From Halorussus rarus (GTDB lineage Archaea > Halobacteriota > Halobacteria > Halobacteriales > Haladaptataceae), in contig NZ_QPMJ01000003.1 of NCBI RefSeq assembly GCF_003369835.1, forward strand, positions 62,001 to 126,000: a DNA stretch of 64,000 nucleotides. The letters run 5' to 3'. The position numbers and the translations under genes were made by a program. Under the pieces are notes generated by a model that saw nothing but the letters and a program-made list of their open reading frames with translations, made no database searches and had not been told where the DNA came from. Shown piece by piece: positions 3,177 through 62,672 of this stretch; the first letter of the stretch is position 1, and each line of letters begins with the position of its first letter.

Positions 3177-4589
3177 ATGGATTTCGATTCGGAGCGACGA
3201 CGCTTCCTCGCGGCGGCGGCCGCGACCGGTGCGATGGGGCTGGCCGGGTGTGCGGGCTCTGACGGAGCGCCGGAAGACCGGACCGAGACGACCGACTCCG
3301 GCGCTCCGTCCGAACCGGGGGCGACCGAGACGACCGCTGCGGGCCCGCAGCTCCCCGACGCGGTCGGGCTCGAGACGCTGGCGACGGGGTTCGAAGTCCC
3401 GCTCGACGTGGCGTTCGCGCCCGACGCCGACCGGCGGTACGTCGCCGACCAGCCGGGTCGGGTGTTCGTCCACGATCCCGACGGGCTGCGCGACGAGCCG
3501 TTCCTCGACCTGCGCGAGACGGTCGTCACCGGGTACGAGATGGGGCTGCTCGGCCTCGCGCTCCACCCGGAGTTCGCCCAGAACCGCCGGACGTTCGTCC
3601 GGTACAGCGCCCCGCCGCGGGAGGGGACGCCCGACGGCTACAGCCACACGTTCGTGCTCGCGGAGTTCGAAGCGACCGACGACGGCACGGCGGTCCGCCC
3701 CGACTCCGAGCGGACGATCCTGGAGATTCCGGAGCCCCAGTCCAACCACAACGCCGGGTCCATCGTCTTCGGTCCGGAGGGGTACCTCTACGTCGGCGTC
3801 GGCGACGGCGGCGGGGGCGGCGACCAGGGCACCGGCCACGTCGGCGACTGGTACGACGAGGTCGACGGCGGCAACGGGCAGGACGTCACCGAGAACCTGC
3901 TCGGGAGCGTCCTGCGCATCGACGTGGACAGCGAGTCGCCGGAGGCGACTCGGACGGGAGGCGGTGGAACCGCCGACGGCGAGCCTTCCGGGGACCGCAA
4001 CTACGCCGTTCCCGACGACAACCCGTTCGCGGGCGGCGGCGCGGGACTGCCCGAGCACTACGCCTGGGGCTTCCGGAACCCCTGGCGGATGGCGTTCGAC
4101 CGCGGGCGCCTCCTGGTGGCCGACGTGGGCCAGAGCGCCTACGAGGAGGTGAACCTGGTCGAGCGCGGCGGCAACTACGGCTGGAACGTCCGGGAGGGCG
4201 CCCACTGCTTCTCGGCCGACGAGTGCCCGGACAGCACGCCCGACGACGTCCGGGGCGGCGAACTGCTGGTCGACCCCGTCGTCGAGTACCCCCACTCGGG
4301 AGACGGGGTCACCGGCGAATCGGTCATCGGCGGCAACGCCTACCGGGGGTCGGCGCTGCCGGGCCTGACCGGCGCGTACGTCTTCGCCGATTTGGCGGCC
4401 GAGGGGCAACTGTTGGCCGCGACGCCCGCCGACGAGGGGCTCTGGCCCATCAGCGTCGTGGAGGTGGCCGGCGACGACGCCGGGAAGGTCGGTCGCGTCT
4501 ACTCGTTCGGCCGCGACGCCGACGGCGAACTCTACGTCCTCGCGAACGGCGAGGACGGCGGCGGCCTCCACCGCATCGTGCCGGCCTGA
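3177..4589 (+). CDS. PQQ-type soluble glucose/sorbosone dehydrogenase family lipoprotein
   Basis: 470 residues. A Tat motif (RRRFL) and a lipobox ending at Cys25 (GLAGC) predict a surface-anchored lipoprotein. The mature part is a six-bladed beta-propeller of the GSDH family, from the LATGFEVPLDVAFAPD opening blade through SNHNAG, which carries the His expected at the active site, to the YAWGFRNPWRMAFD and GGNYGWNVREG signatures. Members oxidise aldoses or related polyols; many characterised ones use PQQ and calcium. The substrate here is unknown and a PQQ synthesis pathway is not visible. An insertion near residues 252-266 is encoded by two tandem perfect hairpins. Confidence 0.9.
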   Translation: MDFDSERRRFLAAAAATGAMGLAGCAGSDGAPEDRTETTDSGAPSEPGATETTAAGPQLPDAVGLETLATGFEVPLDVAFAPDADRRYVADQPGRVFVHDPDGLRDEPFLDLRETVVTGYEMGLLGLALHPEFAQNRRTFVRYSAPPREGTPDGYSHTFVLAEFEATDDGTAVRPDSERTILEIPEPQSNHNAGSIVFGPEGYLYVGVGDGGGGGDQGTGHVGDWYDEVDGGNGQDVTENLLGSVLRIDVDSESPEATRTGGGGTADGEPSGDRNYAVPDDNPFAGGGAGLPEHYAWGFRNPWRMAFDRGRLLVADVGQSAYEEVNLVERGGNYGWNVREGAHCFSADECPDSTPDDVRGGELLVDPVVEYPHSGDGVTGESVIGGNAYRGSALPGLTGAYVFADLAAEGQLLAATPADEGLWPISVVEVAGDDAGKVGRVYSFGRDADGELYVLANGEDGGGLHRIVPA

Positions 4590-32432: not shown

Positions 32433-32623
32433 TTGACTGACCCTTCGGCGGGGTGTGTCATAAATTCACGTCCGGGAGCGAATCGAGGAGCGGTGCTCGG
32501 CGCGTCGTCGCACTCACCGCTGGTCGGTCGAGAGGCGTCACCTCCTGCGTCCTCACCGTTCTCTCGGCGGTTTTCATCGACGATATGCAAGGGCGCGCCG
32601 AGAGGCGCCTGCAGTAAAAGGCC

Positions 32624-32636
32624 GAATGGGACCGCC
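32624..32636 (-). repeat. Partial copy of the tRNA-Pro 3' terminus (direct)
   Basis: Thirteen bases (GAATGGGACCGCC on the plus strand) are identical to 32842-32854, the discriminator/acceptor end of tRNA-Pro with its flank. A T-arm-like piece with one inserted base follows at about 32688-32705, separated from it by two hairpins. Confidence 0.6.
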
Positions 32637-32777
32637 GGAACTTCGCTTCGCTCGTTCCGAGCCTTGCCTCACTTCGTTCGGCAAGACGCCCGGATTCTGA
32701 ACCGTCGCAAGACGGTCCGGGCGTGCGGCCTTCGGCCGTTCCGGGCTGCGACTTGCGGGGTTCGAATCCTCTATTCG

Positions 32778-32792
32778 CCCATTCTGCCGACG
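32778..32792. repeat. 15-bp inverted copy of the tRNA-Pro 3' end and flank
   Basis: Perfect reverse complement of 32834-32848, which covers the last four tRNA bases plus 11 bases of 3' flank. The two arms enclose 41 bases, so they can pair into a hairpin immediately after the tRNA. Confidence 0.8.
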
Positions 32793-32844
32793 TGGAATGA
32801 GGCTCGCGCACGCTACGCGGCGCTCGCGGACTGCGTCGGCAGAA

Positions 32845-32917
32845 TGGGACCGCCCGGATTCGAACCGGGGTTATCGGCACCCAAGGCCGAAAGGATACCA
32901 AGCTACCCCACGGTCCC
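32845..32917 (-). tRNA. tRNA-Pro (anticodon UGG)
   Basis: 73 bases, no intron, CCA not encoded. Acceptor GGGACCG pairs with CGGTCCC, with A73 as discriminator. The anticodon stem TCGGC/GCCGA encloses the loop CTTGGGT, with TGG at positions 34-36. The T-arm is CCCGGTTCGAATCCGGG. A TATA-like GCTTTACA lies about 31 bases upstream. Reads all CCN or CCA/CCG proline codons depending on modification. Confidence 0.95.
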
Positions 32918-43481: not shown

Positions 43482-44148
43482 TGCCACTCGCGAATCGGGA
43501 GAGTCGCGGAAGAAACCTGCAGGTCGTTTTCCACGGCGCCGAGAGAAACGCCGGATTTCCGATTGCGGCCCTAACAGAAACGTCCCGTCGGGGGACCGCC
43601 GGACCGCGCGGTGGTCGCGGAGTACCAAAGAGGGAGAGTGAGGAAGGGGGACGCATCGAATCGGTCGCGGAGAACCGAAAGGAGATAGCGAGACTGCACG
43701 GCGCCCCGGAACGAGAACTTTCGCGGGAGGGTTGGTGACACGACGGCGGGAGGCCAGCCCGCCACCAGAGCCTCCGGCGACGCCGGCGGCCGTCCGTTGC
43801 ACGCTCTGCGCCCGAGCCGTCGGGCGCATCTACGTCTGATGGCCGATTCGGACTTTGTTATGGGCCGTGTTCCCGGCGGCAGGTCGCGGTTGTGGCGGGT
43901 TCAGTTGCGGGCTGACCGGACGTTTACGTCGGCTGAACCCGGCGTTCCGGAGAACGATCGCCGAAACAGTTCAGATGAGTAATGAATCTAGACGGAACTC
44001 TGCCTCGACTGTAGAAGCGTCGGATGGTGGACGATCCAGATGCGAGAATCGGACCCTGCGAGGCGCGCAACGAAGCGAGCACGTCTCGCAGGGTTCGATT
44101 CTCGCACCGATGGACTGTCGGCTCCTCGCTTCGTTCGTCGCCAGAAAG
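43482..44148. other. Non-coding interval upstream of the binding-protein gene, ending in a tRNA-like fold-back
   Basis: About 670 bases. The binding-protein promoter must lie near 43500-43560, but no clear TATA box is visible. Between 43620 and 44000 I see no gene I can support; short frames read as low-complexity Arg/Ser sequence. The last 120 bases hold the tRNA-His-derived hairpin. Confidence 0.5.
44041..44106. repeat. Inverted pair of tRNA-His 3' ends (22-bp arms)
   Basis: Arms 44041-44062 and 44085-44106 are reverse complements with one mismatch. The right arm contains the T-arm and part of the acceptor of the neighbouring tRNA-His; 16 bases (TGCGAGAATCGAACCC) are identical to the tRNA at 44156-44171. 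The 22-base loop holds a CAACGAAGCGAG motif also seen elsewhere in the window. Confidence 0.8.
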
Positions 44149-44222
44149 GTCCAGGTGCGAGAATCGAACCCGCGTCTCAGCCTCCACAAGGCTGAAGGAT
44201 GGTCCACTACCCCAACCCGGAC
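44149..44222 (-). tRNA. tRNA-His (anticodon GUG), G-1 encoded
   Basis: 74 bases including the extra 5' G-1 that faces C73. Acceptor TCCGGGT pairs with ACCTGGA. Anticodon stem CAGCC/GGCTG encloses TTGTGGA with GTG at 34-36. T-arm GCGGGTTCGATTCTCGC. No intron; CCA not encoded. A TATA-like TATTTTAATT lies about 31 bases upstream, in an AT-rich gap. Confidence 0.95.
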
Positions 44223-61994: not shown

Positions 61995-62672
61995 CTACCG
62001 GGCGTCGAGCGCGAGCGCCGCTCCCAGCCCCACGAGGAGCGACCCCGAGACCCACCGGAGACCGTCGGCGAGGCGGGGCCGGGCGCGGAACGCCGACCGG
62101 ACCCCGCCCGAGAGCAGGCCGACGGTTCCGAGATAGGCCGCGGTCAGCGCGGCGTAGGTCCCGCCGAGCGCGAGCATCTCGGGGATGGGAGTGGCGCCCG
62201 AGGCGGCAGGTCCGCCGCCGGCGCCGACGAACTGCGGGAGGAACGCGAGGAAGAACAGCGCGACCTTCGGGTTGAGGACGTTGACCGTCACGCCCCGGAG
62301 GAAGCCGCGACGGAGGTCGGGGGCCGCCTCACCGCCCTCGGGCAGCCCATTTTCGTCGCTCACCAGGTCGAGGTCCTGGCCCCGCCACAGCGTCTTCGCG
62401 CCCAGATACACGAGGTAGGCCGCCCCGGCGTACTTGACCGCGGCGTAGGCCAGCGCCGAGGCCCGGAGGAGCGCCGCGAGGCCCAGCGTCGCCGCGGTGG
62501 TGTGGACCAGGATGCCCGTGCTGACCCCCAGCGCCGAGGCGAGGCCGCCGCGCTTGCCGGTCGAGACGCCCTGCGTGAGCACGAAGACGGTGTCCGGACC
62601 GGGCGTCAGGATGAGGGCCATCGCGGCCGTCACGAACAGGAGGTAGGCCTGGAGGTCGATGCTCGGGAGCAT
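61995..62672 (-). CDS. LysE/RhtB-family amino-acid exporter
   Basis: 225 residues, six membrane helices. N-terminal signature LILTPGPDTVFVLTQGVSTGKRGGLASALGVSTGILVHTTAATLGLAALL, then GAAYLVYLGAKTLWRG and GVTVNVLNPKVALFFLAFLPQFV are the family motifs. Exports amino acids or derivatives; the substrate is unknown. Alone. Confidence 0.92.
   Translation of the reverse strand: MLPSIDLQAYLLFVTAAMALILTPGPDTVFVLTQGVSTGKRGGLASALGVSTGILVHTTAATLGLAALLRASALAYAAVKYAGAAYLVYLGAKTLWRGQDLDLVSDENGLPEGGEAAPDLRRGFLRGVTVNVLNPKVALFFLAFLPQFVGAGGGPAASGATPIPEMLALGGTYAALTAAYLGTVGLLSGGVRSAFRARPRLADGLRWVSGSLLVGLGAALALDAR

Follow-up and report, generated by a model that had tools for sequence, protein, structure and literature searches.

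Nearly all haloarchaea examined carry, just downstream of many of their tRNA genes, small hairpin-forming DNA cassettes that each end in a copy of the 3' end of that same tRNA and that are gained, lost and reshuffled, a class-wide genomic feature of which no description was found in the open-access literature searched. A covariance model detects the family in 189 of 194 Halobacteria genomes (E of 0.01 or better, up to 23 matches per genome). A unit, typically 110-160 nt, comprises a trailer hairpin (h1), an inverted copy (I) of the T-arm and acceptor of the host tRNA that is usually decayed, a conserved hairpin core (CNAGTCGCAgCCCG...CAGGaCCGTCTNG), and a direct copy (D) of the host tRNA from G52/T54 to its 3' end, often with some trailer. 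I and D pair, so that I-core-D is one long imperfect hairpin with an outer T-arm stem, an unpaired spacer, an inner covarying stem with fixed mismatches, and a variable tip. Units are present singly or in tandem arrays.

The window (the whole stretch of 64,000 nucleotides that was analysed, positions 62,001 to 126,000 of contig NZ_QPMJ01000003.1 of Halorussus rarus, assembly GCF_003369835.1) lies in a 4.37-Mb genome with 45 detected tRNA genes. Both tRNA genes of the window are on the minus strand, so that downstream means falling coordinates, and the features of their flanks are as follows.
32845-32917, minus strand: tRNA-Pro(TGG) gene (ARAGORN and Rfam RF00005), of which the T-loop-to-3' end (GGTTCGAATCCGGGCGGTCCCA on minus) is the sequence that the unit copies.
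32778-32848, minus strand: trailer hairpin h1, with perfect 15-bp arms at 32834-32848 and 32778-32792 that include the last four tRNA bases; DNA fold -25.2 kcal/mol, z -5.4.
32757-32769, plus strand: inverted T-arm copy (arm I), GGGGTTCGAATCC on plus and GGATTCGAACCCC on minus.
32691-32770, minus strand: hairpin core with both T-arm halves (GATTCGAACCCCGCAAGTCGCAGCCCGG...CCGGACCGTCTTGCGACGGTTCAGAATCC), matched by covariance model R1 (G000:C3:94691-94770, in the numbering of this genome and contig; 78.7 bits, E 3e-18), although this sequence is one of the 10 in the model; DNA fold z -3.3.
32688-32703, minus strand: T-arm part of direct copy D, with one extra base in the T-loop (GGTTCAGAATCCGGGC).
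32664-32684: inserted small hairpin that splits the direct copy (TTGCC...GGCAA).
32637-32658: second inserted small hairpin (GGAAC...GTTCC).
32624-32636, minus strand: acceptor part of direct copy D plus 3 trailer bases (GGCGGTCCCATTC), 13/13 identical to the tRNA end.
44148-44221, minus strand: tRNA-His(GTG), with its own unit.
44085-44108, minus strand: inverted arm I of the tRNA-His unit (GGTGCGAGAATCGAACCCTGCGAG), which forms a hairpin with D; DNA fold z -4.6.
44035-44062, minus strand: direct copy D of the tRNA-His unit (CTCGCAGGGTCCGATTCTCGCATCTGGA).

The initial annotation had noted a 13-base direct copy, a T-arm copy with one inserted base, an opposite-orientation T-arm and a perfect 15-bp inverted repeat behind tRNA-Pro, and all four are present. 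Its suggestion of a recurring haloarchaeal tRNA-flanking element is supported, but its picture of scrambled pieces is wrong: the pieces form an ordered unit with a conserved hairpin core between an inverted and a direct copy of the same tRNA end, and the direct copy, not the inverted one, is the better preserved part. The Pro unit is a partly decayed example whose direct copy is split by two inserted hairpins. No Rfam or ARAGORN hit was found that would indicate a hidden plus-strand tRNA at 32620-32790.

The genome was examined for copies of 12 or more of the last 30 bases of each tRNA within 300 nt downstream. Inverted copies are present at 3 of 45 tRNAs (0.00 expected) and direct copies at 11 of 45 (0.03 expected), with 0 and 0 upstream; a looser first pass had shown 14 of 45 tRNAs. 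In four Halorussus genomes, one of them only partly sampled, the counts are 8 inverted and 39 direct of 141 (0.05 and 0.03 expected). By gapped local alignment, 43 of 140 tRNAs score 13 or more downstream against 1 of 140 upstream, and tRNA ends tested against the flanks of other tRNAs score as high in only 0.8% of pairs. Against 2000 dinucleotide shuffles of the 300-nt flank, the direct copy of tRNA-Pro is reached once and the inverted copy 28 times, whereas for tRNA-His (44149-44221) both are reached 0 times. Taken alone, the inverted T-arm of tRNA-Pro is therefore only mildly unusual, but coincidence of GC-rich palindromic flanks is refuted by the genome-wide excess of direct copies (more than 300-fold) and by the class-wide covarying family.

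Side-by-side comparison of the flanks shows one plan: tRNA, h1, inverted T-arm (GATTYGAACC), core, then GGTTYRAATCC running on into the rest of the 3' end of the same tRNA. Of 108 tRNAs with a close copy of their own acceptor end, 76 also carry the core. Among all copies, the identity with the tRNA usually stops sharply at G53-G50 (8-12 nt beyond position 61 in 66 cases), at a median of 130 nt from the tRNA. Copies that stop at the 3' side of the T-loop mostly belong to a second, shorter hairpin type; in the genome of the window, a shorter type (ACCnTCGCGAACAAACCGCGTTCGCTCGGT or similar) lies between inverted and direct copies of the tRNA acceptor end at three loci (L012, L019 and L038), with the copy starting near position 61. 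The T-loop class of the copy agrees with the tRNA in nearly all core-bearing cases. Arm I carries the T-loop base of its own tRNA (A-A 37, G-G 15, mismatched 3; p 7e-11), and its acceptor part, although decayed, fits its own tRNA better than other tRNAs (p 6e-7). In one locus (L229) it is, by inspection, a perfect 22-nt reverse complement of a tRNA-Arg end.

These inverted arms would be well explained if the units were mutational by-products, made by replication template switching or rolling-hairpin copying at the palindromic tRNA end and multiplied by direct-repeat slippage, with no dedicated enzyme. The strict Watson-Crick pairing described below and a recent tandem triplication are also in keeping with this. 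However, a conserved core shared by unrelated tRNAs and by nearly all Halobacteria cannot be made from the tRNA itself and must come from elsewhere, and the copy begins at a fixed place. Template switching remains a live alternative, though an unlikely one.

The covariance model aligned 125 matches. In the inner stem (helix 2), GCNAG/CTNGC, 93% of cells are paired, several pair types are found at two neighbouring positions, and 0 of 500 shuffles reach any of the five measures. This control does not correct for relatedness, but 41 and 55 double-change cells at two neighbouring positions are hard to explain otherwise; the outer stem of the model is mis-registered by one to two columns, and pair counts for helix 1 are disregarded. 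As single-stranded DNA, both I-core-D and h1 of the window's Pro unit fold better than shuffles, but one short unit from another genome does not (z -0.6). The hairpin loops of h1 and of the core tips in most units are very often mirror-type purine-rich strings such as GAGCGAAGCGAG or CGAACGAAGTGAG, also seen in other haloarchaeal palindromes.

The compensatory changes could instead reflect selection on RNA, if the unit were transcribed with the tRNA and its two hairpins acted as a terminator, trailer-processing signal or decoy for tRNA-end enzymes. The position 3' of the tRNA on the same strand, the class-wide retention, and the well-folding h1 that directly follows the tRNA are consistent with such a function. 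However, G-U pairs make up only 1.0% of pairs in the covarying stems against 3.0% in tRNA acceptor stems of the same genus, which suits DNA-level pairing somewhat better but is weak evidence on its own; the units are patchy within one genus, those of Pro, His, Tyr and Ser being absent in a congener and that of Phe in another; and the core also occurs away from tRNAs. An RNA-level function is possible but doubtful. The units did not score above the gathering threshold of any Rfam family, only tRNAs and one unrelated leader being matched.

In a phylum-wide sample, 23 of 24 Halobacteria and 0 of the other 124 genomes match the model. A stricter pattern, scanned over one genome per species for 84,980 species, hit 36 places, all haloarchaeal, of which 31 lie 3' of an intact tRNA on the same strand; 25 of those repeat at least 10 exact bases of its end. 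The other five lie at broken or partial tRNA 3' ends. Of the best non-own loci, 29/29 lie directly 3' of a tRNA on the same strand. In two congeners, 32 of 36 matches lie within 1 kb 3' of a tRNA on the same strand (chance 0.7%); of the remaining four, one is at an unlisted tRNA-Pro, one at a tRNA-Glu 3' fragment, and two belong to or resemble a dispersed repeat. A dispersed palindromic repeat of roughly 200-300 nt (GGTGGACTGAAAGGGGCCG...GGGGGCTTTCGA) holds the same hairpin core away from tRNAs (loci L057-L064 and L066 of the genome of the window, e.g. L062 at about 1375-1600); there are 17 matches in that genome, and 36 of 59 Halobacteria genomes match all or part of it. The core may thus be a general mobile hairpin module for which tRNA ends are one preferred site.

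Units lie outside intact tRNAs and so are not tRNA introns. In one haloarchaeal MAG (loci L218 and L240) a tRNA-Asp is interrupted at the T-stem by a bare core, and a second copy is reduced to the acceptor 5' strand plus core; the interrupted gene is the only match to the tRNA-Asp 5' half found in that MAG, and may represent an assembly fault, a pseudogene or an intron-like state. At another locus (L209, about 3500-3860), a tRNA-Thr gene not called by ARAGORN seems to carry a short hairpin insertion in its D-arm and is followed by a normal unit.

Within Halorussus, units differ in presence, number and core at the same tRNA. At tRNA-Tyr the segment that follows the tRNA directly in one species follows an extra unit in another, and at tRNA-Val a related h1 is joined to different cores in different species. 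In a closer pair of species (G071 and G101), the second tRNA-Gly unit is wholly different between identical flanks, tRNA-Ser has order P-Q in one species and Q-P in the other, tRNA-Val has X-Y-X' against Y-X, and tRNA-Ile has its two h1 segments exchanged around the same core. Tandem arrays include three identical 122-nt units behind one tRNA-Phe and A-B-A-B arrays behind tRNA-Gly and tRNA-His. All of this turnover is bounded at D, as expected for recombination between D copies, whether homologous or site-specific. In one genome (G176, loci L085 and L130), the same long variable tip with extra nested hairpins is found in units of tRNA-Leu and tRNA-Arg, suggesting core exchange between different tRNAs.

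Classical integration at tRNA 3' ends, the usual att sites in archaea, is well known (PMC8371274, PMC3119063) but does not account for these units. If they were scars of tRNA-integrating elements, D would be the att copy left by proviruses or plasmids with tyrosine integrases, and the rest a leftover element end. A 3-kb insert with a 369-aa tyrosine-integrase-like ORF (locus L189, 475-3706) indeed lies between a unit-bearing tRNA-Gly and a 42-nt tRNA-end copy followed by a second, near-identical unit, but this integrating element duplicates 42 nt and apparently contains the unit as passenger, so the two are distinct. Uniform units of 110-160 nt with a covarying core and tandem arrays are not expected from random deletions. 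No match was found in viral contigs or phages, and plasmids gave one weak hit to a tandem unit query and scattered partial hits to the dispersed repeat. This origin is considered improbable.

We tentatively favour the interpretation that the family behaves as a non-autonomous mobile or selfish cassette. Seeding into a new tRNA would be site-specific at the T-loop, most likely by a recombinase acting on the folded I-core-D hairpin as integron integrases act on attC, after which ordinary recombination between the repeated D copies would expand, shrink and shuffle the array while the tRNA stays intact. This inference is made because the layout of the hairpin appears to match that of attC and because the copy starts at a fixed T-loop position. 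However, no enzyme was identified, the array flanks not having been annotated gene by gene, and no excised circle or single-strand intermediate is known. Reordering of units at D needs only homologous recombination between direct repeats and does not itself show site-specific recombination. Insertion by crossover in the T-loop would give the tRNA the acceptor end of the cassette, so that movement between different tRNAs needs an extra correction step, and yet long-tip core variants are shared by Leu and Arg units. No cassette was seen to carry a gene. A more far-reaching possibility, considered unlikely, is that Halobacteria carry a class-wide recombination system, separate from integrons, in which a recombinase uses folded single-stranded hairpins (I-core-D) as donor sites and the T-loops of tRNA genes as receiver sites, building and shuffling cassette arrays behind tRNAs without harming them.

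A conspicuous, rapidly rearranging architecture is present next to essential genes in nearly all Halobacteria sampled. It offers a ready marker system for strain-level change, makes testable whether hairpin-based single-strand recombination exists outside integrons, and warns that tRNA 3'-end repeats in haloarchaea are not proof of provirus integration. Small palindromic, non-autonomous elements are already known, but the tRNA-specific double copy and the cassette arrays have no precise counterpart known to us.

Like integron attC sites and gene cassettes, the units have an imperfect hairpin made of an outer conserved box, an unpaired spacer, an inner box with fixed unpaired bases and a variable tip; the outer box repeats the target-site sequence, and units in arrays separated by the site are replaced and reordered at site boundaries. 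They differ in that the target is the tRNA T-loop, a different one per locus, the outer box is the tRNA T-arm (GGTTYRAATCC) rather than GTTRRRY, no integrase gene was seen as part of the units and no coding cassettes were seen, and the family is found in Halobacteria only. REP/BIME and other short palindromic repeats are likewise short non-coding imperfect palindromes with many copies per genome, found in clusters and likely moved in trans, but the units are bound to tRNA 3' ends rather than dispersed without a fixed gene target (although the core module alone is also dispersed), each carries direct and inverted copies of the end of its host tRNA, and the core is class-wide. MITEs with target-site duplication are also small, non-coding, flanked by a duplicated target sequence and probably non-autonomous; here the duplicated target is a fixed 22-25-nt gene part with an inverted copy inside, arrays are formed, and no parent transposon is known, without a search for one by sequence. 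Tyrosine-integrase att sites at tRNA 3' ends (e.g. SNJ2-type haloarchaeal elements) share the target region, the direct repeat of the tRNA 3' end bounding the insert, the restoration of the tRNA by an identical 3' end, and the displaced copy downstream, whereas the units are 110-160 nt, have no integrase within them, possess an inverted tRNA arm, and are found at many different tRNAs in one genome with the same core. CRISPR arrays and casposon target duplications share the alternation of a repeat (here the tRNA end) with different inserts, but the inserts in the haloarchaeal arrays are related hairpins, not captured foreign DNA, and the repeat is a gene end.
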